Part shown: positions 2,017-17,115 of the stretch, in pieces
Layout of the letters: each line of letters opens with the position of its first letter
Numbering within the stretch: the first letter of the stretch is position 1
Origin: Gemmatimonadota bacterium
GTDB lineage: Bacteria; 4572-55; J002
Reading direction: 5' to 3'
Assembly (NCBI GenBank): GCA_003697105.1
Contig: RFFQ01000141.1
Coordinates: 1-17,115, forward strand
Length of the DNA stretch: 17,115 bases
The notes under the pieces: generated by a model
Told to the model about the DNA's origin: nothing
Database searches by the model: none
Seen by the model: only the letters and a program-made list of their open reading frames with translations
Translations under genes and position numbers: made by a program

Positions 2017-2778
2017 TTAAAAGACGGGTAATTCTCTGCCAACAGGCAACAGAGTTTTTGCCGTGAACTGTACGTGATCCGGCATTAATTCGTAAATCCA
2101 GTAGGGATGCGGGCGTTCACAGAACGCCGGAATCACGGCGAAGGTGGTCGTACCGGTCTGAAACGGTTTGACACCGGAGTGATAATGCCCGCTGAGCACC
2201 AAGCGCACTTTGCCGCTATGGACGATCTGATCCTGCAAGACGGCAGCATCGCGGTAGTTATGCGGGTATTCATGATCGATTTCCGGCGCAATAACAAAAT
2301 GTTGGATGTGGATTTGGGGGCGGGGGTCATCGTCTTGCAAAACCCGCTCAAAACGGTCGCGTTGTTCCCCCACGCGTTCCGGTACGTGATCGGCGGCTTC
2401 GGCGTCGCAAAACGTGATGATGCGATACCCTTGAATCGTATGTTCTACCGGCAAATCCCCAAAAACGGCGTGATATACCTCATATTGATCGTGATTACCG
2501 GGCAACACCACGTACGGAAAATCAAGCGGGTAGAGCATATCCGCAATGACGTACAAATCGGCTTCCGCTTGAGCTTGCCGCTCGGGGTTGTCCATTTCGT
2601 CCAAGGGATAATCCAGCAGATCGCCACTAATCACCAGCAGGTCAGGGTCTTCAAACTGAATTTGGCGCAGGAGTTCATGGAGGCGGTCTGGCATTTCTCG
2701 ACTTTTACGGTACGGAAAATCGGAGGTACCCGGTAGGTGATCCCGCAGATGCAAATCCGAAACATGTACAATTTTCAT
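2017..2778 (-). CDS. Calcineurin-like metallophosphoesterase (CpdA/YfcE-like superfamily)
   Basis: A 253-residue cytosolic dimetal phosphoesterase. All family metal-binding motifs are visible in order: D8-x-H10 (VSDLHL), G52-D53-x-x-D56 (SGDLLD), G94-N95-H96-D97 (PGNHDQ), H160 in HIQHFVIAP, and G197-H198-x-H200 (LSGHYHSG). This is the layout of class III cyclic-nucleotide phosphodiesterases and related nucleases or phosphodiesterases, and the length fits that group. The substrate (cAMP, other phosphodiester or phosphomonoester) cannot be told from sequence. A GTG at 2799 is possible, but the ATG at 2778 starts right at the canonical first strand MKIVHVSDLH and has GGAAGGAG about 11 nt upstream, so it is preferred. 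It lies 27 nt after deoC and 37 nt before the exported protein gene, so it is probably co-transcribed with both. Confidence 0.92.
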   Translation of the reverse strand: MKIVHVSDLHLRDHLPGTSDFPYRKSREMPDRLHELLRQIQFEDPDLLVISGDLLDYPLDEMDNPERQAQAEADLYVIADMLYPLDFPYVVLPGNHDQYEVYHAVFGDLPVEHTIQGYRIITFCDAEAADHVPERVGEQRDRFERVLQDDDPRPQIHIQHFVIAPEIDHEYPHNYRDAAVLQDQIVHSGKVRLVLSGHYHSGVKPFQTGTTTFAVIPAFCERPHPYWIYELMPDHVQFTAKTLLPVGRELPVF

Positions 2779-2805
2779 AGATGTTGTTTCTCCTTCCACA
2801 GTTGC

Positions 2806-3609
2806 CTAGCCGTTAATGATGCGGATGCTTGCGCTAGCCCCTAACCGGTTGGCGCCGGCTTCAATCAAGGAGATGGCATCTTGCCGGGTCCGGATGCCGC
2901 CGGAGGCTTTCACCCCGAGCGTATTTCCGACGGTTTGTCTCATTAACTGAACATCGGCGACCGTGGCACCTCCAGAAGCAAAGCCGGTGGAGGTCTTGAC
3001 AAAATCGGCTCCGGCGGCTTTTGCCAGTTGGCAGGCAACCACTTTCTCATCATCGGTGAGCAGAGCGGTCTCAATGATGACTTTGCACAAGGCGTTGTAG
3101 CCGTAGCATGTTTCCACCACGCCTTGAATATCCGCCATAACCCATTCATAATTGCCGGCTTTTAGTGCCCCGATGGGGAGCACCATATCGATTTCGTCTG
3201 CTCCGGCAAGGAGGGCTATTTCGGCTTCCATGACTTTGATTTCGGGCAGATTTGCCCCCAGTGGAAAGCCGACGACGGTGCACACCTTAACGTCACTTTC
3301 TTCCAGCAGTTGCGACGCCAACGGCACAAACCCGGAATTGACACAAACGGAGTAAAACCCGTGTGTGACCGCTTCTTCACAAAGTTGCCGGATATGATCC
3401 GATGTGGCATCCGGTTTCAACAGCGTATGGTCAATAATACCGGCAATATTCTGGATCAGTGTCGCCGGATCGGATTCCACCGGCGGCAGTAACGTGCCTG
3501 CCAGCAAGTAAAGGGGGGGAATATACTCATTCATTTCGGGGTCATGGTGGTGATGATCGGGATCATGATGCTCGGGATGACAATCACAAGAATGGGTGTG
3601 GTCATGCAT
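2806..3609 (-). CDS. deoC: Deoxyribose-phosphate aldolase with His/Cys-rich N-terminal extension
   Basis: Class I aldolase cleaving 2-deoxyribose 5-phosphate to glyceraldehyde 3-phosphate and acetaldehyde in deoxynucleoside salvage. It has 267 residues; the catalytic TIM barrel covers about 50-267. Visible signatures: [11 protein letters not shown] at 59-69, [11 protein letters not shown] at 110-120, [10 protein letters not shown] at 138-147 with proton-relay Asp141, FVKTSTGF at 203-210 with Schiff-base Lys205, and GVKASGGIR at 232-240 with Lys234. The oddity is residues 1-23: ten His, two Cys, five Asp and one Glu, which look like a metal-binding tail. They are followed by about 25 linker residues before the normal start of the family. 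A strong AAGGAGGT just before the ATG at 3609 shows the extension is probably translated. Spacing is 22 nt from the DUF2953 gene and 27 nt to the phosphoesterase. Enzyme identity is very secure. Confidence 0.97.
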
Positions 3610-3614
3610 GGGAT

Positions 3615-3622
3615 ACCTCCTT
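3615..3622 (-). promoter_or_regulatory. Strong Shine-Dalgarno site of deoC
   Basis: AAGGAGGT on the minus strand, 5 nt before the ATG at 3609. It decides the start codon, and so the presence of the His-rich extension in the protein. Confidence 0.8.
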
Positions 3623-3631
3623 CAGTGGGGG

Positions 3632-4378
3632 TTAGGGTGATGATGGATTTTTGGATTCAGGTTGATTTGGGGGAGGTTCGGCGTGGTGTTGGGGTGGAAA
3701 AAGCCAACCCCCCCGCCGCCACTCTTTCCAGAAGTCGAATGCCGAAGCAATAATTGCCAGTAGGATATGCCAAGGACGGATTTTGAAGGTTAATTCAACA
3801 TCTCCTTCGTAGCCGGCTTGCTGAAAATTCGGTGTCAGGTTCACATATGCCTGGCGCGGAAAGAACGGGCGTAGGGATTCGATCACCCCAAACGCCGTAC
3901 CGGTTTGCGCCGGATTATGAAGTCCGTAGGTTCCGTCAATGGTGATATTATCAATCTGGAAAGGTTTCACCAATCGTTTTAACGTTCGTAGGACTTCATC
4001 ATAATATTTTTTCGTCATGTCAACGGCAAATTCAATATCCTCGCGAGTAATTTCCGGGAGTTCGAGTTCTCGCAGTTTGGTGACTCGCTCTTCAAGTGTA
4101 ACCGGTTTGACCTCTTTTCTTTGTTTTCGTCGCGCAATTTGTTGACGTAGTGCCCGTTCACGAGCGATCCGGATCACGTAGGCGGTGTCCCGCTCAAATA
4201 GGGCACCGACACCAAATAATCCTTCAAAATACGTGAAGGTTACGCGAAATTGATGGTATTCTTTTCGCCGGTGGGCAAAGGTGATATAAATCGGTGTGAG
4301 CAGGAAAAGGATGCCCGTGAGTCCGATCAGTGCCAATGGAATGAATAGCAGCCAGAATAAAAGGGTCAGAATCATCAT
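3632..4378 (-). CDS. Membrane-anchored DUF2953-like protein
   Basis: A 248-residue protein of unknown function. Residues about 2-35 are a long hydrophobic stretch (ILTLLFWLLFIPLALIG...) likely to span the membrane. A basic, charged middle (about 70-135) follows, then the signature YGLHNPAQTGTAFGVIES at about 151-168, which resembles the 'G-x-DPAxTGxxxG' core of DUF2953 proteins. A second hydrophobic segment lies near 203-217, and the C-terminal tail is Pro-rich. The reading frame is open up to 4486, and an ATG at 4426 is possible. However, a sigma70-like promoter at 4417-4446 and the position of the membrane segment favour ATG at 4378 (or the next codon, 4375). No clear Shine-Dalgarno precedes it, so the start is uncertain by a few residues. 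It is first in the leftward run. The family call is from memory of the motif. Confidence 0.75.
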   Translation of the reverse strand: MMILTLLFWLLFIPLALIGLTGILFLLTPIYITFAHRRKEYHQFRVTFTYFEGLFGVGALFERDTAYVIRIARERALRQQIARRKQRKEVKPVTLEERVTKLRELELPEITREDIEFAVDMTKKYYDEVLRTLKRLVKPFQIDNITIDGTYGLHNPAQTGTAFGVIESLRPFFPRQAYVNLTPNFQQAGYEGDVELTFKIRPWHILLAIIASAFDFWKEWRRGGWLFPPQHHAEPPPNQPESKNPSSP

Positions 4379-4416
4379 TTGGGGTTTCTGGGGGTCATTG
4401 AAATGGTGTTTTGGCG

Positions 4417-4446
4417 AATATACCATGTATTTTAACAAAGCGTCAA
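4417..4446 (-). promoter_or_regulatory. Candidate sigma70-type promoter for the leftward operon
   Basis: On the minus strand TTGACG (4441-4446) is followed after 18 nt by TATATT (4417-4422). Transcription would start near 4410, about 30 nt before the ATG at 4378. The upstream in-frame ATG at 4426 would then lie inside the promoter. Confidence 0.5.
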
Positions 4447-4494
4447 GATAAATTCCCGAAGATTCTATTCGCATCGTGCGGATCAACGTGTGCC

Positions 4495-4517
4495 AAATTT
4501 CGGCGATTCCGAATTTT
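4495..4517. other. Imperfect inverted repeat in the divergent promoter region
   Basis: Arms AAATTTCGG (4495-4503) and CCGAATTTT (4509-4517) pair in 8 of 9 positions around a 5-nt loop, followed by one further T. It could be an operator or a weak terminator-like hairpin between the two promoters. No regulator gene in the window points to it, so the role is a guess. Confidence 0.25.
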
Positions 4518-4521
4518 TAGC

Positions 4522-4550
4522 TTGTGGTTTTGTCTTGAATTTACTAGGAT
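4522..4550 (+). promoter_or_regulatory. Weak candidate promoter for the signalling operon
   Basis: TTGTGG (4522-4527) and TAGGAT (4545-4550) are separated by 17 nt. Both boxes are imperfect matches to the sigma70 consensus (3/6 and 4/6). It is the best placed pair I can see upstream of the seven-gene run. Confidence 0.3.
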
Positions 4551-4669
4551 ATTACCTGAAAATGGTTTATTGTCCCAATTTCCCCTGAGCGGTGTTTTTG
4601 CTGGAGACCGGTATATCAAATGAGGCACCTCCGGTGGAACCGCCAACGAACCCTCTTCATGAAAGACAT

Positions 4670-5896
4670 ATGCGAGACCAACAAAAAAACCGAGCTCAAT
4701 TGATTGCCGAATTGAACCAACTCCGCGAGGAAAATGCGAAATTGCACCGAGCGACTCGCAATTTTGAACTGCTACAAAAAGTGGTTGAACAAAACGAAAC
4801 ACATCTTCTCCTACTCCAACAAAGTGCCCATATTGGTATCTGGCAGTGGGACTCGAAGGAAAATCATATAACCTTGACCCCTCTGCTGTGTAATATCTTG
4901 CAGATACAATCGCCTGTTCCGGTAGATGATTATCTGGCACACGTCCACCCGGCAGATCGGGAGACCGTGCAGGCATGGCTAGAAGCCTTGTTCCATCCGG
5001 CAGAGTTACCCCCGCCGGTAGAGTACCGTTGGATGTTGCCGGATGGGATGGGAGTACGGTGGCTCCAGAAATACCCGTTCGCGGAGCAAACATCTACCCC
5101 GAATATCCCCTCTATGCGCGGTATTTTGCATGACATTACGGCGTTTAAATCCACCGAGATAACCTTAAAACAAACCGCAGAACAGTTCCAGTCCATATTT
5201 CGGCAACATCCCTGTAGTTTTATCCTGTTTGAAGTCCAGTTCAACACCCAGCACCAACCGTGCGATTACGTTATCGTAGATTTGAATCCGGCATGTGAAG
5301 CCCTCACCGGATTGAATCGTGAGACGGCGATTGGGCACAATATCCTACAGTTAGTACCAGACCTTAATCCCCAATTGTTAGTGGTTGCCCGGAAGACCGT
5401 CTTAACCAAAACGGCGCACCATTGCGAGTATTACTCGGAGTTACTGGATAAATATTTGTGGGTACAGTTCTTCCAACCCCAGCCCCATCTGCTGTGCCTG
5501 ATGTTTGTGGATTTGAACCTTGATTTCCGGCAGACCCCCTCTGAGGAGACAGAAGCGTACCAACGCTTTTTTGAGAATAGCCCCTTTGTGATGCTCATCA
5601 TCGACCCGGAAAATGGGAATATCATTGAGGCAAATCCTGCCGCGTGCACGTTTTATGGATACCGGAGTGATGTCCTGATCTGCAAACGGATTCAGGATAT
5701 TAACACTCTCAGTGAGGATCAAATTGCGCTCGAAATGGATCAGGCACGACAGGAAAAACGAGATTATTTTAAATTTAAGCACCGGATTGCCTCCGGTGAG
5801 GTCGTGGAGGTGGAGGTGTACAGCCGCCCGATCCGGCTGTTTGGGCGGACATTGCTCTATTCGATTATCATCCCCACCCGTGATGAAATGCCATGA
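4670..5896 (+). CDS. Triple-PAS sensor protein without a kinase domain
   Basis: A 408-residue cytosolic protein made of sensor domains only. Residues 3-50 are a charged, heptad-like coiled coil (LIAELNQLREENAKLHRA). PAS-A covers about 48-165 (GIWQWDSKEN, then HPADRETVQAW, EYRW, LHDITAFKS). PAS-B covers about 170-285 (VIVDLNPACEALTGLNRE). PAS-C covers about 295-405 (FFENSPFVMLIIDPENGNII, EANPAACTFYGY). No HisKA, HATPase, GGDEF or HTH region follows; the protein ends right after PAS-C. Its stop overlaps the next gene by 4 nt (ATGA), so the two are translationally coupled, and it may serve as a detached sensory partner of that kinase. The ATG at 4670 begins the coiled coil. An in-frame GTG at 4592 would add 26 Pro-rich residues; neither has a good ribosome site. 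No ligand can be inferred. Confidence 0.85.
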   Translation: MRDQQKNRAQLIAELNQLREENAKLHRATRNFELLQKVVEQNETHLLLLQQSAHIGIWQWDSKENHITLTPLLCNILQIQSPVPVDDYLAHVHPADRETVQAWLEALFHPAELPPPVEYRWMLPDGMGVRWLQKYPFAEQTSTPNIPSMRGILHDITAFKSTEITLKQTAEQFQSIFRQHPCSFILFEVQFNTQHQPCDYVIVDLNPACEALTGLNRETAIGHNILQLVPDLNPQLLVVARKTVLTKTAHHCEYYSELLDKYLWVQFFQPQPHLLCLMFVDLNLDFRQTPSEETEAYQRFFENSPFVMLIIDPENGNIIEANPAACTFYGYRSDVLICKRIQDINTLSEDQIALEMDQARQEKRDYFKFKHRIASGEVVEVEVYSRPIRLFGRTLLYSIIIPTRDEMP

Positions 5897-8800
5897 AAAA
5901 AGAAATTGCTCGCTTAAAACGTAAACTCAAAACGGCTTCCGGTAAAAAACGGCTTGATTTACTCAATGAATTAGCCAAACTGTGTTGGAATATCTCTGTT
6001 GAGGACGCCAAGCGGTACGCCGAAGAAGCGATCTTGCTTAGTGATGAATTGGATGATTCCGGTAGTAAGTTGCGGGCAATGCTGAACTTAGCAAGTTGCT
6101 ACTGGAGCGTGAATCACTTGGATAAGACCCTCCAAATTCTGTTAGATGCGTTGGCTCTCGCGGAGAATATCGGAGAACCGTTACCCCTGTATTTGACCCA
6201 GAACAACCTCGGTATCGTTTATTATGACCTGAAAAAATACGATAAAGCAAAGCACTTTTTTGAACGCGCTTTGGAAATCCACCAAAATAAACTGGATGAT
6301 GACCAGCAATTGACGCCGCTGTTGGTCAATTTGGGGAATTTAGAGATTGAGTTTGGCCATCCCCCCAATGCGCTAGAGTACTATCAACGTGCTTTGCAAC
6401 TTGCAAAAACCGCTGAAGATTGGAATCGAGTCATAATCTGTCTAAACAATATCGGTAGTTACTACAAGAAGCACACCACCGACTATGAAGAGGCACTGCA
6501 TTACTACCAGCAAGCGTTAGCGGTCAATGCGGATGACATGCCGCAAGGCAAAGCGCAGACCTTGGTTTATATGGGTGACCTATTTACGATATGGGGTAAA
6601 CCGGCAGAAGCACAAAAATATCTATCTGAGGGATTGGAGCTAAGCCAGCAATTAGACCGGAAAGATTTGATTCAGATTGCCTATAGCAGCCTTTCGCGCA
6701 TGTATGCCACTACCGGCGACTACCAACGGGCTTTGGAATGCTACCAAAGTTATGTTGCGGTTAAAGATGAAGTTCTGAATCAGGAGACCGCCGCACGAAT
6801 TGCGGAAATGGAAGCCCGGTACGAATCCCAGCGCCGGGAACAGGAAGCCGAAATCTACCGGCTTAAAACTCAAGAATTGGAGCAGACGCTAGATCAATCT
6901 GAACGGTTGTTGCAAACGATCATCAACACCGTGCCGGATTGGATTTACATCAAAGACCCGCAGTTTCGTTATTTGCTGGTCAATAAGAGTTTTTGCGAGG
7001 CACTCAACAAACCGGCAGAGCAGATCATTGGCAAAACTGATTTAGAGTTGGGTTTCCCGGAAGAGTTGGTGTTCGGGGATGAAAGTGAAGCCTTGCGCGG
7101 ATTTCGGGTGGATGATGAAGCCGCTTTACAGGGAGAAACTCGCCACAATTCCTATGATGTGGCGCAGATTGGCGACGGTAGTATTCGCATTTTTGATACC
7201 TACAAAATGCCATTGTATAATAGCTCCGGGCAGATTTATGCCATTTTGAGCATCTCCCGGGATATTACGGAACTCAAGCAAGCGGAAGCCTCTCTCCGCG
7301 AAAGTGCCACCCGCCTGCAAATTGCCCTGCAAAACATACCGGTCATGCTGGATGCAATCGATCAAGATTTTAATATTGTCGCATGGAATGCCGAATGTGA
7401 GCGCATCACCGGCTACAGCGCCGCCGAAATTGTCGATAATCCCAAAGCAATGGAAATGCTCTATCCCGATCCAGAATACCGTAAAAAACTGTTTGCCGAG
7501 TGGCGTCAAATCTCCGGTGATTTCCGAGATATGGTCTCCACCTTGACGTGTAAAGATGGTACGGAACGAATTGTGGCGTGGTCTCATAACTCCATGAAGC
7601 ACATTTTGCCCGATTTGTTGCATTGGGAAGTTGGTATTGATATAACGGAACGCACCCGGGCGGAAGCGGAACTCCGCCAGCACCGGGATCAACTGGAAGA
7701 GATTATCAAAAAGCGAACGGCGGACCTCATGGAGGCAAAAGCCCGGGCGGAAGCGGCAAATCATGCTAAGAGTGCCTTTCTGGCAAATATGAGCCATGAA
7801 CTCCGCACCCCCCTAAACGGCATTTTGGGGTACGCCCAGATCATGAAACGGGATCAGAATTTGCCTAAAAAACATCGCAATGCCGTTGATATTATTCAAC
7901 GTAGCGGGGAGCATCTACTAACCTTAATTAATGATATTCTCGATCTCTCAAAAATCGAAGCCGGAAAGCTAGAACTTCAACCGGCGGAATTTAACTTTTT
8001 GCGTATGTTGAAAAATCTGGTTGATATGAAGCAAATTTTGGCAGAACATAAACAACTGGAATTTCATTACGACATCCTTTCGGGACTTCCTCAGATCGTC
8101 TTCGGAGATGAGAAGCGTATCCGGCAGATTTTACTCAACTTGATTAGTAATGCCATCAAATACACCCTTGAGGGGCACGTGACCTTCCGCGTGGGCTATC
8201 ATTACCAACGTATCCGCTTTGAGGTGGAAGATACCGGTATTGGGATTCCCAAAGATAAACTGGACGATATTTTTCAACCGTTCCATCAGGTCAGTGCCGC
8301 CGCCGCACGGTTGCAAGTGGAAGGTACCGGGTTAGGATTAGCAATTAGCCAACGTCTGGCGCAAAAAATGGGCAGTTGTATCTACGTGGAAAGTGAGGAA
8401 GGCCACGGCTCCAGATTTTGGTTTGATCTGGATTTGCCACCGGTTTCCCCCGAAAATTGGGTGATCGAAGATGAACCGGCAACGATTACCGGCTATTACG
8501 GTGAACAAAAACGCATCCTGGTTGCCGACGACAAACCGGAAAACCGGATTGTCTTTATGGATATGCTCTTGCCCTTGGGTTTTGAGGTCTTTGAAGCCGT
8601 TAATGGGCAAGATGCGATTGAACAAGCAGAGGCGTTACGTCCCGATGCCATCCTGATGGATTTTGTGATGCCCGTGATGGATGGTTTGGAGGCCACACGC
8701 TATATCCGGCAGCACCCCCAAATCAAGGATACCGTGATTATCATGGTCTCTGCCAGTGCCTTTGAACATACCCGGGAGGATAGCCGCGCCGCCGGGTGTA

Positions 8801-9135
8801 ATGACTTTCTCTCGAAACCGATCCGGCTTCATGAATTGCTGGAAATCTTGGGAGAACACCTGAAATTGGAGTGGATTTTTGCACCGATCCACTATACCGG
8901 AACGGAGGATATGGCGAACCTCGTACTCCCCCCACCGGCAGTCCTAAAAGACATTTATAATCTCGCAGATTTGGGAAATCCGGCAGGAATTGAAGCGGTA
9001 CTAGATACCCTGAAGGATAATCCCGAGTACCAGCCTTTTATTACTAGAATTCGAGAGTTATTACGCGGCTTTCAAACCGACGAAATTTGTACGTTAATCT
9101 CAGACCAAATAGGAGTACCGGAATGCCATGACTGA
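5893..9135 (+). CDS. Hybrid histidine kinase: TPR-PAS-PAS-HisKA-HATPase-REC plus C-terminal tail
   Basis: A 1080-residue cytosolic hybrid sensor kinase. TPR repeats fill about 20-290 (typical pieces NNLGIVYYDLKKYDKAKHFF at 104 and ALEYYQRALQL at 160). The coiled-coil linker at 300-345 includes EAEIYRLKTQELE. PAS domains lie at about 340-465 (PDWIYIKDPQFRYLLVNKSF) and 470-595 (DFNIVAWNAECERITGYSAAE). HisKA carries the phospho-acceptor His635 in NMSHELRTPLNGILGY. The ATPase domain has N753, DTGIGIP at 780 and GTGLGLA at 811-817. A receiver domain at 873-990 has acidic pair Asp879/Asp880, phospho-acceptor Asp923, Ser953 and Lys975. About 90 further residues (991-1080, starting near VLPPPAVLKDIYNLADLG) resemble tails I recall on cyanobacterial hybrid kinases. 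All catalytic residues are present. The start overlaps the PAS gene by 4 nt and the end overlaps the next gene by 8 nt. Confidence 0.95.
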   Translation: MKKEIARLKRKLKTASGKKRLDLLNELAKLCWNISVEDAKRYAEEAILLSDELDDSGSKLRAMLNLASCYWSVNHLDKTLQILLDALALAENIGEPLPLYLTQNNLGIVYYDLKKYDKAKHFFERALEIHQNKLDDDQQLTPLLVNLGNLEIEFGHPPNALEYYQRALQLAKTAEDWNRVIICLNNIGSYYKKHTTDYEEALHYYQQALAVNADDMPQGKAQTLVYMGDLFTIWGKPAEAQKYLSEGLELSQQLDRKDLIQIAYSSLSRMYATTGDYQRALECYQSYVAVKDEVLNQETAARIAEMEARYESQRREQEAEIYRLKTQELEQTLDQSERLLQTIINTVPDWIYIKDPQFRYLLVNKSFCEALNKPAEQIIGKTDLELGFPEELVFGDESEALRGFRVDDEAALQGETRHNSYDVAQIGDGSIRIFDTYKMPLYNSSGQIYAILSISRDITELKQAEASLRESATRLQIALQNIPVMLDAIDQDFNIVAWNAECERITGYSAAEIVDNPKAMEMLYPDPEYRKKLFAEWRQISGDFRDMVSTLTCKDGTERIVAWSHNSMKHILPDLLHWEVGIDITERTRAEAELRQHRDQLEEIIKKRTADLMEAKARAEAANHAKSAFLANMSHELRTPLNGILGYAQIMKRDQNLPKKHRNAVDIIQRSGEHLLTLINDILDLSKIEAGKLELQPAEFNFLRMLKNLVDMKQILAEHKQLEFHYDILSGLPQIVFGDEKRIRQILLNLISNAIKYTLEGHVTFRVGYHYQRIRFEVEDTGIGIPKDKLDDIFQPFHQVSAAAARLQVEGTGLGLAISQRLAQKMGSCIYVESEEGHGSRFWFDLDLPPVSPENWVIEDEPATITGYYGEQKRILVADDKPENRIVFMDMLLPLGFEVFEAVNGQDAIEQAEALRPDAILMDFVMPVMDGLEATRYIRQHPQIKDTVIIMVSASAFEHTREDSRAAGCNDFLSKPIRLHELLEILGEHLKLEWIFAPIHYTGTEDMANLVLPPPAVLKDIYNLADLGNPAGIEAVLDTLKDNPEYQPFITRIRELLRGFQTDEICTLISDQIGVPECHD

Positions 9136-10258
9136 TCCAGCCGTGAAAGGTACGATTTTGATTGTCGATGACAATCCCACAAATCTTGCGGTGTTGTATG
9201 ATTATCTGAAAGAAGAAGGATTTGCCGTATTCATTGCTAAAAGTGGTGAAAAAGCAATCCAACAAGTAGAACGCATCAAACCGGATATTATCCTATTGGA
9301 TGTGCTTATGCCCGGTGGGATTGATGGCTTTGAAACGTGTCACCGTCTAAAAGCCAACCCGAATACCCGCGGCATTCCGGTGATTTTTATGACCGCGCTT
9401 TCCGATACGGTGGATAAAGTAAAGGGATTCAACGCCGGTGCGGTGGATTACGTCACCAAACCCTTCCAGCAGGAAGAAGTACTAGCACGAATCAACGCGC
9501 ATTTGACCATCCTCCGGCAACAAGCGATCATCAAAGAATTAAGCGAGAAAAAATTACAAGAACTCCGATTTAGCATCAGCCAATCCTTACCGCACGAATT
9601 ACGAACACCCCTAACGACGATTATGGGATACTCCCAACTAATAGCGGCGTTATCACCGGAAAAGTTGCTGGAAAATGCCCCCAAAGTCTCGGAGAGTATT
9701 TATCAAGCGTCCAAGCGCCTCTACCGGTTGATAGAAAACTATATTTTGTTCACCCGCGTTCAAGTTCTTTTGGCAGATGAGGCGGAACTGAATCAGTTGC
9801 GACAACAAGCCATTTATAACCCACAGGAAATCATCGAAAAACAGGCTCGTGACAAAGCGGCAGAAAAAAAACGAAAGAGCGATTTATCGCTACAGGTAGA
9901 GAATGCCCTCGTTTATATTACCGTGCCAAACCTTGAAAAAATTGTTCAAGAATTGGTCGATAATGCTTTTACCTTTTCCTCACCGGGGTCTCCGGTTGCG
10001 GTACAAGGCGCACGGCAGGGAGACTCCTATCTCATTACGATTACCGATGCAGGACATGGCATGAGTACCGAACAACTGAAAAATATCGGCGCTTACATGC
10101 AATTTGACCGGCATAAACACGAACAACAAGGCTCCGGGCTCGGATTGACTTTGGCAACACAACTGGTTGAACTTCACGGTGGAACATGCCAACTGGAGAG
10201 CGTCCCAGAACAAGGTACAACGGTGTATGTCCGCTTGAGGAGTGTCGTTCATGGCTAA
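9128..10258 (+). CDS. Receiver-kinase protein: REC-HisKA-HATPase
   Basis: A 376-residue protein with an N-terminal receiver at 8-125: acidic pair Asp14/Asp15, phospho-acceptor Asp58 in ILLDVLMPG, Thr89, and Lys111 in VTKPF. The kinase follows, with His156 in SLPHELRTPLTTIMGYSQL, then an unusually charged stretch at about 215-252 (QQAIYNPQEIIEKQARDKAA), and an ATPase domain with Asn279 (ELVDNAFTF), TDAGHGM at 306-312 and GSGLGL at 335-340. A kinase headed by a receiver can take phosphate from another kinase and have its own activity gated by it; this is inferred from architecture. The partner may be the hybrid kinase just upstream, whose gene overlaps this one by 8 nt. AGGAG at 9111-9115 lies 12 nt before the ATG. 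Its catalytic domains belong to a different lineage from the four later kinases in the cluster. Confidence 0.93.
   Translation: MTDPAVKGTILIVDDNPTNLAVLYDYLKEEGFAVFIAKSGEKAIQQVERIKPDIILLDVLMPGGIDGFETCHRLKANPNTRGIPVIFMTALSDTVDKVKGFNAGAVDYVTKPFQQEEVLARINAHLTILRQQAIIKELSEKKLQELRFSISQSLPHELRTPLTTIMGYSQLIAALSPEKLLENAPKVSESIYQASKRLYRLIENYILFTRVQVLLADEAELNQLRQQAIYNPQEIIEKQARDKAAEKKRKSDLSLQVENALVYITVPNLEKIVQELVDNAFTFSSPGSPVAVQGARQGDSYLITITDAGHGMSTEQLKNIGAYMQFDRHKHEQQGSGLGLTLATQLVELHGGTCQLESVPEQGTTVYVRLRSVVHG
10237..10242 (+). promoter_or_regulatory. Shine-Dalgarno site of the first TPR-kinase gene
   Basis: GAGGAG lies inside the end of the preceding gene, 8 nt before the ATG at 10251. It favours that ATG over the GTG at 10242, which would overlap the site itself. 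Confidence 0.75.
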
Positions 10259-12104
10259 ACCGGTAGAACCTCTGTTACAGCAATTGAAAACAGCAACCGG
10301 CAAAGAACGTGTCGATGTATTGATCGAACTCTGTGGCGAAACCTATGATGCAGACCCGGTGAAGGGTATGGAATACGCGAAAGAAGCATTCATACTGGCA
10401 AATGACATCGAATATTTGGAGGGGATGGCGAAAAGTTATCACTCCTTGGGATTATGTTACAATACCACTGCCAACTACGTTAAAGCAAAAGATGCATACC
10501 GGAAAGCCGCGGAAATCAATCTCAAAATTAACAATAAAAAAAATCTGGCAAAAAACTACAATAATCTTGCTATTATCTATTATCATCAGGCAGAATATGC
10601 CCAAGCGTTGGAATATGCCTTCAAAGCATTCAATTTAGATGAGGAATTAGGGGAGACCGGTAGCCGGCATACCCATTATAACAATTTAGGGGTAATTTAT
10701 AGCCGGCTAGGGGATACCGATCAGGCACTGGAATATTATCACAAATGTCTGAAACTTGATCTCGAAAGTGGTGATAAACGACGGTTAGCCAAAACCTACA
10801 ACAATATTGCCGTGATTTATGATGAACAAAAAAAATTGGATTTAGCCTTAGAATATCATTGGAAAGCATTTAAACTTCGGGAAGGATTGGGTGACGAACG
10901 CGGAAAAGCGCTCAGTTATACCAACCTCGGCGTGGTTTATGAACAAAAAAACGAATTGGATAAAGCTTATGATTACCAGCAAAACGCCTTAGCGATTTAC
11001 CAACGACTGAACGACCGGGATGGGATGGCAACCGCCTTAGCCAATCTGGGTCAGGTGGAAATCCGGCGGAGACAGTTTGACTCTGCCGAAAAACTCTTGC
11101 AACGTGCTTTAACCATCTCTCGCGAAATTCATACGGTTGATTTGGAAATTGAAGTTTATAAACTGCTATCAGAGTTATATGAGGCACAGGAGGATTACAA
11201 AGCGGCTTTAGCGGCGTATAAAACATACCGCCACTTGGAGAAGGAACTGTTTAACGAGGAAAAAACCAATGCCATCACGGAAATGCGCACCAAATTTGAG
11301 ACCGAACAAAAAGAAAAAGAAGCGGAAATCTACCGCCTGCGTAATGTGGAATTGGCAGAAGCTCTCCGTAATTTAGAAAAGCTAGATCGGGAAAAAAACG
11401 AATTTTTAGGAATTGTTTCCCACGATCTGAAAAACCCACTCACTTATATTTTGGGGATCACACAGTTGGTTTCCGCCTATGGCATGGAAAACTTTTCCCC
11501 AGAGGAACTTCAGGAATTTTTTACCAGGATTGATCGTAGTGGTAAGCGAATGTTTCAGTTGATTACCAATTTACTGGATATCAACCGGTTGGAATCAGGA
11601 AATGTTGAACTTAGTCCAACTTATTTTGACCTCGTGGGGGTCCTAAAAACCGTATTGGAAGAATACCGGACACCGCTAGCCGAAAAACAATTGACCGTTT
11701 TCTCAGAACTGCCCCCCCCACCGGTGAATCTCTATGCCGATAAAAACGCGGTACAGCAAGTTTTGGATAACTTGATCTCCAATGCGATTAAATATTCACC
11801 GAAGCAGAAATCCATTTGTATCCGGTTGTACAAGAGGATGGCGTCATCTGCGGGCCAACCTTTGATCCGGTTAGAAGTGCAAGATGAAGGTTTGGGGCTG
11901 AGTTTGGAAGATAAAAAACAGCTCTTCCAGCGGTTTGCCCGGTTAAGTGCCAAACCCACCGGCGGGGAGCATTCCACCGGCTTGGGCTTGTCTGTCGTCA
12001 AAAAGTTGGTAGATTTGATGGGTGGTCAGGTGTGGGCAGAAAGCGCCGGTAAAAATAAAGGCACCACTTTTATTGTGGAACTTCCCGAAAACCGCTCTCA
12101 ATAG
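10251..12104 (+). CDS. TPR-sensor histidine kinase (TPR-HisKA-HATPase)
   Basis: A 617-residue cytosolic kinase with about seven TPR units in residues 20-335 (NNLAIIYYHQAEYAQALEYA, NNLGVIYSRLGDTDQALEYY, NNIAVIYDEQKKLDLALEYH, TNLGVVYEQKNELDKAYDYQ). The coiled-coil linker at 340-380 contains EAEIYRLRNVEL. HisKA has His391 in IVSHDLKNPLTYILG. The ATPase domain has Asn511 in NLISNAIKYSP, QDEGLGL at 544-550 and STGLGL at 575-580. There is no PAS, receiver or membrane segment, so the TPR array is the only visible input and presumably reads a protein partner. The first 30 residues (LLQQLKTATGKERVDVL) match the starts of the two other TPR kinases here. The ATG overlaps the upstream gene by 8 nt and has GAGGAG 8 nt before it. 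The phosphate target is not encoded in this protein; the receiver-kinase neighbours are candidates. Confidence 0.94.
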   Translation: MAKPVEPLLQQLKTATGKERVDVLIELCGETYDADPVKGMEYAKEAFILANDIEYLEGMAKSYHSLGLCYNTTANYVKAKDAYRKAAEINLKINNKKNLAKNYNNLAIIYYHQAEYAQALEYAFKAFNLDEELGETGSRHTHYNNLGVIYSRLGDTDQALEYYHKCLKLDLESGDKRRLAKTYNNIAVIYDEQKKLDLALEYHWKAFKLREGLGDERGKALSYTNLGVVYEQKNELDKAYDYQQNALAIYQRLNDRDGMATALANLGQVEIRRRQFDSAEKLLQRALTISREIHTVDLEIEVYKLLSELYEAQEDYKAALAAYKTYRHLEKELFNEEKTNAITEMRTKFETEQKEKEAEIYRLRNVELAEALRNLEKLDREKNEFLGIVSHDLKNPLTYILGITQLVSAYGMENFSPEELQEFFTRIDRSGKRMFQLITNLLDINRLESGNVELSPTYFDLVGVLKTVLEEYRTPLAEKQLTVFSELPPPPVNLYADKNAVQQVLDNLISNAIKYSPKQKSICIRLYKRMASSAGQPLIRLEVQDEGLGLSLEDKKQLFQRFARLSAKPTGGEHSTGLGLSVVKKLVDLMGGQVWAESAGKNKGTTFIVELPENRSQ

Positions 12105-12112
12105 GAATGTAT

Positions 12113-13924
12113 ATGAATTGGTTATTTCCTGCAATTGTTGCGACGTTGATCAGTATATTTATCTTAGCGGTGGTCTATTTTTACTTATACACGATTGACC
12201 GGCAAAAATATTTACTGATTTGGTGCATCGGCTGGGGATTTTATGCGCTCCGGCTTATTTTTATGCTCTTGCTGATTTTGCCACTGGGTCTTGACCCGTA
12301 TTTGCTGGTAGCCAATCAACTTGCCGCCTTGATGAGTGGGGTTTTTTTACTGGGGGGGACATACCGATTTTTAGAACGAAAAATACCCTATTTCTGGGTA
12401 TATTGGGCAATTTTTAGCGGGATATGGGTGCTTTATAGCACCTTTTCCCAACTTGATTTCCGGTATATGACGCTCCCGAATTACACCTTTCTGGGGGCAG
12501 TTTCGTTGTGGACGGGTGTGGTACTGCTCCGCTACTTGGAAAGGGGCGGGCTGGGAACACAGATCACGGGCGGGTCATTTATCCTGTGGGGCTTGCATAA
12601 ATTCAATTACCCGTTTTTGAGACCGGTGGAATGGTTTGCCCCGTGGGGGTATCTGATCGGTGCTACGCTGGCATTGATTGTCGCCATCGGAATGATTCTG
12701 GTCTATTTCCGCAAAACACGCGAAGACCTTCAACGCAGTGAAAGCCGTTACCGGTCTGTCATTGAATCCTTGAGTGAAGGCATCGTGGTGCATGACCTAT
12801 CCGGGAGGGTCATTGCCTGCAACCAGTCCGCGTTGGATATATTGCAGTTTACGAAAACCGAATTAATGAACTGGTCACCCACAGCGTCCCACCGGAAGAT
12901 ATTTCGGGACGATGGTTCCCCATTTCCCCCGGAGGAACATCCCGTTTTATTGACATTACGTACCAAAAAACCGTACCATCAGATGATTATGGGCATTCAG
13001 CGTGACGATGAACGCTTGATTTGGATATCAGTCAATACCCAACCGATCTATGACACTCCGCCAAGCGAATTGAGGGGTGTGGTGGCATCCCTGACCGACA
13101 TCACCCGGCGACGGGCCGCCGAAATGGAACTGCGTCAGCATCAGGAACAACTGGAAGAATTGGTCAAACGGCGTACCCAGGAACTCGAACTCGCCAAAGA
13201 TCGGGCTGAAGCGGCGAATCTGGCAAAAAACGAATTTTTGGAGATTGTGGCACACGATCTGAAAAATCCATTGACCGCAATTGGTATCAATGCCGATCTG
13301 CTACGCGTGATCCTGAAATCGAGGTGGACAGAAGACGTGGCAGACCTGGAACTGTACTTGCAAATCATTACGGATAAAGTCGAGCAGATGAACATCGCGA
13401 TCAAAAATCTGCTGGAATTAGACCGGTTAGAATCCGGGTATTTGCAGTTGCAAAAGGAACGTCTTAATGCGGAAACCATCCTACACCGGTTGGTGATGGA
13501 ATATCGTGAACTTTCCCAACGGAAAAATATTGAAATTGAATATGAAAAACCTGAGATGGAATGTTCCATCTTAGGCGACCAGTATGCCGTTCGCGAAATT
13601 TTTGATAATTTGCTCTCTAATGCGATCAAGTATTCCCCACCCAACAAAAAAATCTATGTTCGGACATCCATTATCAACGGCAGTTATGTGCAAGTGGAAA
13701 TTCAGGATGAAGGGCAGGGATTAACCCCAGAAGACCAGCAGAAGCTATTTAGCAAATTTGCTAAACTCAGTGCCCGACCCACCGGCGGCGAAATCTCTAC
13801 TGGACTCGGACTATCGATTGTTAAAAAATTAGTAGAAGCCCACAATGGCAAGGTGTGGGCGGAAAGTGAAGGTCGTCATAAAGGAACCACTTTTGTCGTT
13901 CGATTACCTCAACTCACACGATAA
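12113..13924 (+). CDS. Membrane sensor histidine kinase: 7TM-PAS-HisKA-HATPase
   Basis: A 603-residue integral membrane kinase, the only membrane protein of the cluster. Hydrophobic segments lie near 5-26, 34-56, 66-83, 94-112, 124-141, 150-165 and 178-199, giving seven spans with very short loops, so the sensing surface is probably within the membrane. A PAS domain covers about 210-335 (SRYRSVIESLSEGIVVHDLS, then GVVASLTDITRRRAA), followed by a coiled coil at 336-372. HisKA has His381 in IVAHDLKNPLTAIG. The ATPase domain has Asn503 in NLLSNAIKYSPP, QDEGQGL at 531-537 and STGLGL at 562-567. I do not recognise the 7TM domain as a named family. ATG 12107 sits directly on the AGGA at 12103-12106, whereas ATG 12113 is 6 nt away, so 12113 is chosen. 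It follows the previous gene by 8 nt. Confidence 0.92.
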   Translation: MNWLFPAIVATLISIFILAVVYFYLYTIDRQKYLLIWCIGWGFYALRLIFMLLLILPLGLDPYLLVANQLAALMSGVFLLGGTYRFLERKIPYFWVYWAIFSGIWVLYSTFSQLDFRYMTLPNYTFLGAVSLWTGVVLLRYLERGGLGTQITGGSFILWGLHKFNYPFLRPVEWFAPWGYLIGATLALIVAIGMILVYFRKTREDLQRSESRYRSVIESLSEGIVVHDLSGRVIACNQSALDILQFTKTELMNWSPTASHRKIFRDDGSPFPPEEHPVLLTLRTKKPYHQMIMGIQRDDERLIWISVNTQPIYDTPPSELRGVVASLTDITRRRAAEMELRQHQEQLEELVKRRTQELELAKDRAEAANLAKNEFLEIVAHDLKNPLTAIGINADLLRVILKSRWTEDVADLELYLQIITDKVEQMNIAIKNLLELDRLESGYLQLQKERLNAETILHRLVMEYRELSQRKNIEIEYEKPEMECSILGDQYAVREIFDNLLSNAIKYSPPNKKIYVRTSIINGSYVQVEIQDEGQGLTPEDQQKLFSKFAKLSARPTGGEISTGLGLSIVKKLVEAHNGKVWAESEGRHKGTTFVVRLPQLTR

Positions 13925-13937
13925 GGATGATTGCCCA

Positions 13938-15695
13938 ATGAATGAAAAAATACGCCTGTTAGAAGCCCAACTTCCGGAGCTAATCGGAAAAGAAAAGATA
14001 AATGCACTCAATGAGTTATGTTTTTTTTATGCTACTCGATCCACCGACAAGGCACTCCAATACGGCAGTGATGCCTTACTGCTGGCGCAGGAAGAAAACG
14101 ATCCGGTTGGTGAAGCAGAAGCGCTCTCTAAAAATGGGATTATCTATTTTTATTTAGGTGATTTTGATCAATCACTTCGTTACTTTTTGGATAGCTTAAA
14201 GCGCTACGAAAGCCTGGAGCATAAGTTGGGGATTGCAAAAACCTTACTCTCTATCGGGAACGTTTATAGCCGGCTCTCGAATAATGAATTGGCGCTGGAG
14301 TATTACCAGCAATCGCTTGTCATTTCAGAAGCCCTCAATGACCCCGTGGGGATTGCCTCTTGTTACCAAAATATTGGATTGATACACGATAATCAGGAAG
14401 AATACAACCTTGCTTTAGAGTATTATACGAAAGCATTGCAACTCTCGGAAAAGCTCAATGATACGGAAAAAGTGGCGAAGCTACTCAATAATATCGGGTT
14501 AGTGTATGAACATCTGAGTGATGACCAAAAAGCACTGGAGTATTATCAAAAATCGCTAGAAATTTGTGAGAGCGTGGCAGATAAAGCCGGTTTAGCGTAT
14601 TCATTAGGCACGATAGGTACCATCTACAAACGGGCGGGTCAATCGGGTAAAGCCATTGAGTATTTGGAACGGGGTTTGAAATTGGCGCAAGAACTGAAAG
14701 CTAAAGAATTGAGCCTGAATTTTTACGCCGAACTGACTGAACTATACGCCCAACAAGAAGATTATAAAACCGCTCTGATGTACCAGCAGCAATATCTAGA
14801 AGCGCGAGATGCGGTGTACAACGCCACTCAGAGCCGACAAATTGCTGAAATGCAAGCCAAATACGATGCCGAAAAAAAGAAACGTGAAGCGGAAATTTAC
14901 CGCCTGAAAAATGTAGAATTACAAAAAGAGGTCGACCAGCGGAAGGAAGCAGAAAAAAAACTCCGCCAGATCAATGAAGAACTCACCCAACTCCACCGGG
15001 AAAAAGATGAATTCCTCGGAATGGCGTCACATGACCTCAAAAATCCGTTAACATCGATCTTGGGATTTGTACAACTGATTAATATGCTGGGCGAAAAGTC
15101 GTTGGATAGCCGGACTAAAGGATTTTTGAATAGTATTGAAGAATGTGCGAACCAGATGTTCCGCATTGTCACAAACTTAGTGGATCTAAATCGGATTGAA
15201 TCTGGTAAAATACATTTTCCTTTACGCACATTCGACCTGCGGTTTGCTTTGGTTCAGGTAATCAATCGTTATCAAAGCCAAACGGATGATAAGCAAATTA
15301 CCATGAATTTTGAACTTCCGCATCATAAATGCCTTATCTTAGCCAATGAGGATGCGGTGGATCAAATTTTGGATAATTTGATTTCCAATGCGATTAAATA
15401 TTCCCCGCCGGAAAGCAGTATTTATGTGCGGTTGACCGACACGGGTGAGCATATCCATTGTGAAATAAAAGATGAAGGGCAAGGGCTGACCCCGGAAGAT
15501 AAGAAAAAGATATTTACGAAATTTGCACGGCTAAGTGCCAAACCTACCGGCGGTGAAAATTCGACGGGCTTAGGACTCTCTATTGTGAAACGATTGGTTG
15601 ATCTCATGCACGGTAATGTCTGGGTGGAAAGTGACGGTAAAAATAAAGGATCTGCTTTTATTGTGGAATTTCCGAAACCCTCTCAAGCTCATTAA
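13938..15695 (+). CDS. Second TPR-sensor histidine kinase (TPR-HisKA-HATPase)
   Basis: A 585-residue cytosolic kinase closely matching the TPR kinase two genes upstream. TPR units run through about 20-290 (LGDFDQSLRYFLDSLKRYES, NIGLVYEHLSDDQKALEYYQ, LGTIGTIYKRAGQSGKAIEY). The linker has EAEIYRLKNVELQ at 318-330 and continues as a longer coiled coil to 358. HisKA has His365 in MASHDLKNPLTSILGF. The ATPase domain has Asn484 in NLISNAIKYSPP, KDEGQGL at 511-517 and STGLGL at 542-547. All catalytic residues are intact. The frame stays open upstream to 13845, but that part overlaps the preceding gene. ATG 13938 has AAGGA at 13923-13927, about 10 nt away, and begins the shared 'L..L...IGKEK...LNEL' N-terminal module. 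The gap to the previous gene is 13 nt. No receiver is attached; likely a second input arm to the same network. Confidence 0.94.
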   Translation: MNEKIRLLEAQLPELIGKEKINALNELCFFYATRSTDKALQYGSDALLLAQEENDPVGEAEALSKNGIIYFYLGDFDQSLRYFLDSLKRYESLEHKLGIAKTLLSIGNVYSRLSNNELALEYYQQSLVISEALNDPVGIASCYQNIGLIHDNQEEYNLALEYYTKALQLSEKLNDTEKVAKLLNNIGLVYEHLSDDQKALEYYQKSLEICESVADKAGLAYSLGTIGTIYKRAGQSGKAIEYLERGLKLAQELKAKELSLNFYAELTELYAQQEDYKTALMYQQQYLEARDAVYNATQSRQIAEMQAKYDAEKKKREAEIYRLKNVELQKEVDQRKEAEKKLRQINEELTQLHREKDEFLGMASHDLKNPLTSILGFVQLINMLGEKSLDSRTKGFLNSIEECANQMFRIVTNLVDLNRIESGKIHFPLRTFDLRFALVQVINRYQSQTDDKQITMNFELPHHKCLILANEDAVDQILDNLISNAIKYSPPESSIYVRLTDTGEHIHCEIKDEGQGLTPEDKKKIFTKFARLSAKPTGGENSTGLGLSIVKRLVDLMHGNVWVESDGKNKGSAFIVEFPKPSQAH

Positions 15696-15734
15696 CTAAA
15701 TTTATAACGTATCTACCCGATTGAAGGTAACACG

Positions 15735-16898
15735 ATGAACGTATTGATTATTGAAGATGATACCTATGTCACCCGGTTACTCAAAGATACGATCCGGCGC
15801 GCCGGGCATGATGTAACGGATTGTCTGGATGCTGAAAGTGCTTTAGCGCATTATCAGACAACGTTTTATCCCTTGATTATATCGGATATTGGTCTGCCCG
15901 GTATTGATGGGGTGGGTTTTATCCGGCGAGTGCGGGAAATGCCGAACGGCAAATATAGCTTTATAGTTGTTTCCACCGGAGTTGCTCCCCCTTCGGAGCT
16001 GGCTTTTCTGCTGGAAGCCGGTGCAGATGACTATATTACAAAGCCACTTAATCTGGATATTCTGAAAATTCGGCTGGAAATTGCGTATGCTCAAGCCCAA
16101 CACCGAATCCGGCAGAAGAAAACAGATGAGGATATCCAGCAGGCGCTGACCCATCTGGAAGAGATGAATCGGGAAAAAATCGAGATTTTCAATATGGTCT
16201 CTCATGACCTGAAAGGACCCTTGACCTTCATTTTGGGAATTGTGGATTTTGTGAGCCATTCTTCCCCAGAGGAGTTTTCTAAAGCGAAACTCTATCGCTA
16301 CTTTAGCGATATTCAGAAAAATGGACAACGAATGTTTCAGTTAATGGATCGTCTTCTGAATGTCAATAATTTAGAAACCGGGCGGATCAACTTAAACTAT
16401 GAAGTGTTCGATATCTGCTTCCCTCTTTTGCAAGTTATCGAGATTTACACCCATGACGCCCTCAAAAAGCAGATTCAGATCGATTTTCAGCCCCCACCAG
16501 ACGAGTTTTTAGTCTATGCGGATGAAAGTGCCGTGCAACAAATTCTCGAGAATCTAATCTCCAACGCGATTAAATATTCACCACCGCACACTCAAATTTC
16601 TATCAGTCTGAAGGCGCATAATGAGTACATTATCTGTAAAGTTCAGGATGAAGGACAGGGGTTTGATGCCCACGAGAAAGACCTTATTTTTCACAAATTT
16701 GTCCGGCTCCATCCGGTGGTAGAGGAGACCCGACATTCTGCGGGTTTAGGGTTAGCGATTGTTAAGCGTTTAGCTGAACTCATGGGGGGTCGAGTATGGG
16801 CGGAAAGCCCCGGCCGGGGCAACGGTTCGACCTTTTTTGTTCAACTCCCTAAATCCCACGCACCGCAGAGTTCGGTTACCGCAGCGAGCCATTCGTGA
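15735..16898 (+). CDS. Second receiver-kinase protein: REC-HisKA-HATPase
   Basis: A 387-residue protein with an N-terminal receiver at 1-120: acidic pair Asp8/Asp9, phospho-acceptor Asp51 in LIISDIGLPG, Ser80/Thr81, and Lys103 in YITKPL. A coiled linker (130-150) leads to HisKA with His157 in MVSHDLKGPLTFILG. The ATPase domain has Asn277 in NLISNAIKYSPP, QDEGQGF at 304-310 and SAGLGLA at 335-341. It shares the architecture of the gene at 9128-10258, but its catalytic half belongs with the SHDLK kinases around it, so the REC-kinase layout seems to have arisen twice. Compared with its relatives, the lid segment (HPVVEETRH) lacks the SAKPTGGE sequence. GAAGG at 15723-15727 lies 7 nt before the ATG. 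It is last in the run, 39 nt after the preceding gene, and palindromic repeats follow 45 nt downstream. It is a likely collecting point for phosphate from the receiver-less kinases (inference). Confidence 0.94.
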   Translation: MNVLIIEDDTYVTRLLKDTIRRAGHDVTDCLDAESALAHYQTTFYPLIISDIGLPGIDGVGFIRRVREMPNGKYSFIVVSTGVAPPSELAFLLEAGADDYITKPLNLDILKIRLEIAYAQAQHRIRQKKTDEDIQQALTHLEEMNREKIEIFNMVSHDLKGPLTFILGIVDFVSHSSPEEFSKAKLYRYFSDIQKNGQRMFQLMDRLLNVNNLETGRINLNYEVFDICFPLLQVIEIYTHDALKKQIQIDFQPPPDEFLVYADESAVQQILENLISNAIKYSPPHTQISISLKAHNEYIICKVQDEGQGFDAHEKDLIFHKFVRLHPVVEETRHSAGLGLAIVKRLAELMGGRVWAESPGRGNGSTFFVQLPKSHAPQSSVTAASHS

Positions 16899-16902
16899 AT
16901 GC

Positions 16903-16992
16903 GAAAACCCCCACCATAATGCGGATTTGGTGGATACCCCCCGTAGAGACGTTGCATTGCAACGTCTCTACAGATATCGCCCATCACCATCC
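16903..16992. repeat. 90-bp repeat unit, copy 1
   Basis: This begins GAAAACC and ends CATCACCATCC. Its last 50 nt (16943-16992) match copy 2 at 17066-17115 in 49 of 50 positions. The first 40 nt are similar but diverged. Copies start 123 nt apart with 33 nt of unlike sequence between them. Confidence 0.85.
16943..16971. repeat. 29-bp palindrome, copy 1
   Basis: Arms GTAGAGACGTTGCA and TGCAACGTCTCTAC flank a single T and are perfect inverted copies. It lies 45 nt after the last kinase stop codon. There is no T-run, so it is not a standard intrinsic terminator, though the stem could still protect or end the transcript. Confidence 0.9.
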
Positions 16993-17025
16993 CCAAAAAT
17001 TTTGCCAGCGCCTCCAAACCGTGTG

Positions 17026-17115
17026 GAAAACCGACGCGCTTATCTGGATTCGGTAGGATACCCCCGTAGAGACGTTGCAGTGCAACGTCTCTACAGATAT
17101 CGCCCATCACCATCC
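17026..17115. repeat. 90-bp repeat unit, copy 2 (reaches the window edge)
   Basis: Second copy of the unit at 16903-16992, starting at GAAAACC and still matching copy 1 at the last base of the window, so the repeat may continue beyond it. Confidence 0.8.
17066..17094. repeat. 29-bp palindrome, copy 2
   Basis: Identical to copy 1 except for the central unpaired base (G instead of T), so both arms are fully conserved between copies. Conserved pairing with a variable centre suggests that hairpin shape or two-fold symmetry matters. Confidence 0.9.

Follow-up and report, generated by a model that had tools for sequence, protein, structure and literature searches.

The window in this study is the whole of contig C17 (17,115 bp), which belongs to a 4.18-Mb genome, assembled in 199 contigs, from a bacterial lineage with little sampling. 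Seven co-directional genes, designated g1 to g7, lie on its + strand at 4670–16898 and encode one PAS-only protein and six histidine kinases, with three receiver domains among them (Table 1). Coordinates, open reading frames and Pfam matches agree on this gene content, as described in the first-pass annotation, and the tight packing at the front was also confirmed: g1/g2, g2/g3 and g3/g4 overlap by 4, 8 and 8 nt (gaps of − 4, − 8 and − 8), and the following gaps are + 2, + 13 and + 39 nt. Judging from this tight co-directional packing, the seven genes are probably co-transcribed. The genes upstream of g1 are on the opposite strand. Promoter and terminator scans of the locus gave results at the level of shuffled sequence and were uninformative. 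At the start of the contig (57–2042), a secreted protein with a FlgD_ig/type IX secretion-like C-terminal signal is encoded. A defence function was considered and rejected, as PADLOC returned only generic TPR and kinase-like matches.

Table 1 Features of the locus and of the adjoining contig end.
Feature	Position	Strand	Description
g1	4670..5896	+	PAS-only protein, 408 aa; Pfam PAS_9/PAS_3 matches in the ORF; alternative GTG start at 4592
g2	5893..9135	+	TPR-PAS-PAS-HisKA-HATPase-REC-tail hybrid kinase, 1080 aa (Pfam)
g2 C-terminal tail	8932..9111	+	Follows the receiver; modelled as four short helices; lacks His; conserved with other hybrids (alignment A1)
g3	9128..10258	+	REC-HisKA-HATPase (Pfam); receiver clade follows tail-bearing hybrids
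g4	10251..12104	+	TPR-HisKA-HATPase (Pfam); HDLKNPL clade, support 99; alternative GTG start at 10242
g5	12107..13924	+	7TM-PAS-HisKA-HATPase (Pfam, hydropathy)
g5 7TM input domain	12107..12745	+	aa 1–213; seven-helix membrane domain
g6	13938..15695	+	TPR-HisKA-HATPase (ORF, Pfam, kinase tree)
g7	15735..16898	+	REC-HisKA-HATPase; HDLKGPL (Pfam, kinase tree)
Palindrome repeat	16943..17094	.	Two 29-nt copies (16943–16971 and 17066–17094) within a 123-nt direct repeat; the contig ends there

All six kinases have an H-box (HELRTP in g2 and g3, HDLKNP in g4 to g6, and HDLKGP in g7) and a full HATPase match, and the phosphoacceptor Asp and the Lys are kept in all three receivers when the sequences are read by eye. 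Hydropathy analysis predicted transmembrane segments in g5 only. The PAS-only protein g1, likewise predicted to be free of such segments, may be a soluble adaptor; a full-length relative was not found in 40 other genomes. A Pfam search of the window at E 0.01 revealed no effector domain, whether DNA-binding, GGDEF, EAL or of another type. The window also has no Hpt match; eight are present elsewhere in the genome, one of them free-standing on contig C22. It had been proposed that the receivers are located at kinase N-termini, which applies to g3 and g7; the third is at the C-terminus of g2. Similarly, the proposed absence of an output domain is valid for conventional effectors in the window, but g3 and g7 are themselves response regulators in form, with a histidine kinase as the output.

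The tail following the g2 receiver comprises approximately 60 residues and contains no histidine. Single-sequence structure prediction modelled it as four helices with a pLDDT of about 72–87, and the rest of the receiver-plus-tail model was poor. We constructed a tree of 136 kinase cores (quick IQ-TREE with SH-aLRT support only, no bootstrap), in which the g2 core clades with those of hybrids on C192, C68 and C22 and on C103 of the class relative G001, and the g3 core groups with REC-kinases from several phyla. The tail profile (A1) was present in 10 of 290 genomes. We read a further 20 tail loci, selected by the tail alone; at 11 of them, one of the next two genes downstream, in the same orientation, encodes a protein with a receiver at its N-terminus, and the other nine have no adjoining partner receiver. 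These 11 partner receivers are 48–68% identical to the g3 receiver; for the 67 other N-terminal receivers sampled from the present genome, the median identity is 32% and the highest value 53% (Mann-Whitney p 1.6e-7, which overstates the evidence because sequences of one genome are not independent). All tail-partner receivers sampled (19 of 19) fell into a single clade of 24 among 126 receivers, with a support of 88, in a FastTree phylogeny of uneven internal support.

The outputs of the partners are diverse. In other genomes, the genes after tail hybrids carry kinase, GGDEF, HD-GYP or sigma-54 domains, where GGDEF and HD-GYP were assigned by sequence motif only and domains in the fetched loci were called with profiles trained on the present genome. 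An earlier form of the claim, that the tail predicts a REC-kinase specifically, fitted the present genome (4 of 5 tail hybrids against 0 of 13 others); since the partner output varies in other genomes, it was rejected and recast to the receiver clade. The REC-kinases amount to a natural domain swap: compared with the partners on C68, C22 and G001 C103, g3 shows 74, 73 and 64% identity in the receiver and 43, 22 and 22% in the kinase half. The kinase halves closest to that of g3 (41–43%) belong to the REC-kinases of loci L112, L116 and L229, whose receivers are only 36–43% identical and which have no tail-bearing hybrid upstream. Near a g3-family REC-kinase at L112 (C12 of the present genome, G000), a TPR and caspase-like (Peptidase_C14) protein is encoded at 9409–11538, directly upstream of a lone receiver.

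At the level of sequence, the receiver tracks the upstream hybrid and the output half is exchangeable. On this basis, g3, adjacent to and co-directional with g2, is best read as the putative response regulator that partners g2, with a kinase exchanged into its output slot. In more general terms, a tail-bearing hybrid may fix the clade of its partner receiver across phyla, and histidine kinases of different families may repeatedly have filled the output slot in this lineage, producing two-tier kinase cascades whose final regulators are unlinked; we advance this generalization tentatively, with slightly less than even confidence.

RpfC/RpfG is an example of a hybrid kinase paired with a separate receiver-output protein. 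The g2-g3 arrangement is similar in that a hybrid kinase gene lies beside a receiver-output gene, and relatives of the pair use HD-GYP or GGDEF outputs. It differs in that g2 has the His-less four-helix tail in place of an HPt and the output of g3 is a kinase. With an N-terminal receiver containing a phosphorylatable Asp and a C-terminal HisKA-HATPase, g3 and g7 qualify as REC-HisK proteins (Galperin; PMC5847659), of which at least 30 are located near kinases in the present genome. A 2018 archaeal census counted REC-HisK proteins as response regulators and allowed for a role either as cascade intermediates or as internal sensors (PMC5847659); for g3, in contrast, a likely partner is identified here. 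At locus L100 (G000 C48, 4704–11452), two REC-kinases are followed by a guanylate/adenylate cyclase-AAA-TPR protein, possibly another exit for REC-kinases.

In the proposed mechanism, g2, which has cytosolic TPR and PAS inputs, would autophosphorylate and transfer the phosphate to its own receiver, the g3 receiver, or both. The phosphorylated g3 receiver would then gate the g3 kinase, and the output of the pair would be a second kinase. Alternatively, the histidine of g3 or g7 could accept phosphate from a receiver in a T-R-(R)T phosphorelay, replacing the HPt that the window lacks. The T-R-T-R loci RedCDEF and TodST can use the second transmitter as such a phosphotransfer step, and the T-R then R-T order of the present genes is in line with this precedent (PMC3018481). 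However, H-boxes and full HATPase matches are kept throughout, and the sequences give no sign of a degenerate, autophosphorylation-defective second transmitter as reported for Red. In addition, partners differ in the kinase half (22% identity), which favours a gated output over a fixed relay histidine. We therefore consider a relay of this type rather improbable. RedCDEF of Myxococcus xanthus and TodST likewise have two transmitters and several receivers per locus, and Red has no obvious DNA-binding output (PMC3018481); the present locus differs in having six transmitters, and the dual-receiver and lone-receiver proteins are absent from the window by Pfam.

The kinases g4, g5, g6 and g7 fell into one 21-member clade of the kinase tree (support 99), whose members were found only in the present genome and G001. 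The clade is not subdivided according to locus, and a simple, recent tandem duplication therefore does not explain the array. In G001, the relatives of g4 to g7 are solitary. Solitary kinases of this family adjoin unrelated housekeeping genes, such as mutS and the pantothenate synthetase gene, and the recurring partner regulator sought beside them was not found. A dedicated network in the sense of one conserved unit was not borne out, as the set is not kept in G001 and g4 to g7 are dispersed paralogues, although this synteny test is weak because G001, the sole same-class genome compared, is related only at the class level. At locus L095 (G000 C101), a STAS-domain protein is encoded at 9902–10402 between two TPR kinases of the g4–g7 family.

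The four kinases of this lineage-specific family appear to have exchanged their inputs, with TPR in g4 and g6, 7TM-PAS at the membrane in g5, and a receiver in g7. The kinase half of g7 is from the g4–g6 family, and its receiver is nearest to the receivers of the C22 array. Its motif is HDLKGPL, compared with HDLKNPL in the family. Since the missing N/T of the usual phosphatase motif is generally needed for phosphatase action, g7 would probably be a second gated kinase biased to kinase activity. The best named model for g4 and g6 was FimS of Porphyromonas gingivalis, which also has a TPR input on a HisKA kinase (PMC11053733), but their scores (190.8 and 198.4) are below the cut-off of 600 for NCBIfam NF053520, and the TPRs of FimS are periplasmic between transmembrane helices, whereas g4 and g6 have no transmembrane segment.

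The input domain of g5 was modelled as seven helices with a pLDDT of 92, and had no Pfam match even at E 5. It contains the conserved stretch HxxxYPxLxxxEWFAPWGY. Homologues with 32–49% identity were found in Desulfobulbaceae, Hydrogenedentota, Marispirochaeta, Chloroflexi and Clostridia MAGs. The domain occurred in 11 genomes out of 386 and was missing from G001, a distribution that suggests horizontal spread. Assignment to a receptor family was attempted and rejected: VIA-align gave Z scores of about 12 with many unrelated seven-helix receptors, which is the range of helical bundles, and Foldseek gave no match below 0.001.

We evaluated how unusual the locus is in its own genome, which has 124 HATPase and 134 receiver matches. 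Sampling around kinases (same strand, gaps ≤ 200 bp) placed 145 two-component genes in 99 foci, comprising 67 single genes, 24 pairs, 6 triads and 2 foci of six genes; single receivers are undercounted in these figures because the sampling was centred on kinases. The two six-gene foci are the present locus and contig C92. The 44,008 two-component genes of a 2010 census are fully accounted for by classes with one to four members, and 94% of its triads combine kinases with regulators (PMC3018481). Long kinase-only arrays are thus generally rare, yet recurrent in the present genome, given that the census classes stop at four and two sextets occur here.

The C92 array (L094, G000; 5137–17629) consists of six TPR kinases in a row, of another family, and lies between a RelA/SpoT gene and a CrcB gene, which close it at both ends; neither flank holds a regulator. 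Five of its kinases are approximately 35–40% identical to each other, and in the C92 kinases the HExNN box is followed by a conserved insertion, IWxCWExDxxG. Smaller arrays are located on C71, C185 and C68; on C185 and C68, the flanking genes are unrelated and include no regulator. The sister array on C71 (L093, G000; 2227–14347) encodes three TPR kinases, a hybrid and a REC-PAS-GAF-PAS-kinase, followed by acetyl-CoA synthetase; the hybrid combines extracellular solute-binding domains, a kinase, a receiver and a g2-like tail. These five kinase genes count as 3 + 2 in the foci, since a gap of 228 nt and what looks like a frameshift interrupt the run. The latter is in the second TPR kinase, near 10283–10668.

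These arrays bear on the possibility that the present genes gathered accidentally, through duplication and insertion events in a genome rich in kinases, each kinase acting on its own unlinked regulator. The scattered single occurrence of the g4–g7 family beside housekeeping genes and the lack of a conserved set in G001 are consistent with such a history. On the other hand, the gene starts overlap, six kinases in a row occur twice in one genome in which 67 of 99 foci are single genes, and the g2-g3 pairing is conserved well outside this genome. We regard accidental gathering as unlikely.

The contig stops 217 nt after g7, inside a repeat, and the absence of an output domain consequently holds only up to that point. 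The repeat contains a palindrome with perfect 14-nt arms, GTAGAGACGTTGCA-N-TGCAACGTCTCTAC, which recurs at no fewer than 10 places in the genome (several of them contig ends) and folds as RNA far better than shuffled sequences (z − 7.5). Matching the contig end to other contigs to find the sequence beyond g7 yielded only other ends in the same repeat. Exits are present in two sister arrays. The C22 array, which has g7-like receivers, a hybrid with the g2 tail and two REC-kinases, ends with the free HPt protein. The eight-gene array on C103 of G001 contains a g2-like kinase that is split, a protein made of receiver plus tail, a REC-kinase and two more kinases; an NtrC-type regulator follows after 33 nt, with REC-DUF4388 next to it. 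Therefore, an exit may also lie beyond the end of the present contig, and the locus could be a truncated ordinary one whose real output is a conventional response regulator or HPt just past g7. The 217 nt and the strong hairpin repeat after g7 are nevertheless unlike the packing within the operon, and arrays without an exit also exist, as shown by C92, which has unrelated genes on both sides, and by C185 and C68. Truncation of this kind is a somewhat unlikely explanation, if one with real precedents in the sister arrays.

We lean towards the interpretation, which we hold to be slightly the more probable outcome, that the locus is a multikinase array built on the g2-g3 pair of hybrid kinase and response regulator, surrounded by four kinases with exchanged inputs that would end on regulators encoded elsewhere. 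The first-pass annotation had proposed a dedicated multi-input integration network with its output regulator elsewhere; a kinase-only array without an adjacent final regulator is retained from this proposal, as in the closed C92 array, and the dedicated conserved unit is not. RetS and GacS are kinases that regulate each other directly, and that system resembles the present proposal in that several sensor kinases act on one another, but its unlinked kinases converge on a known regulator, whereas those described here are adjacent (PMC5992135). The locus would thus combine known ideas, namely a REC-HisK output, a second-transmitter relay and kinase-kinase regulation.

Kinase-only arrays that exceed the four-gene classes of the 2010 census (PMC3018481) occur in the present genome. 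REC-HisK proteins are common, yet according to the 2018 archaeal census none had been studied or characterised experimentally (PMC5847659). The g2-g3 pair offers a concrete, testable case, in which a kinase would be driven by a receiver of a type that elsewhere acts on c-di-GMP enzymes or sigma-54 regulators.
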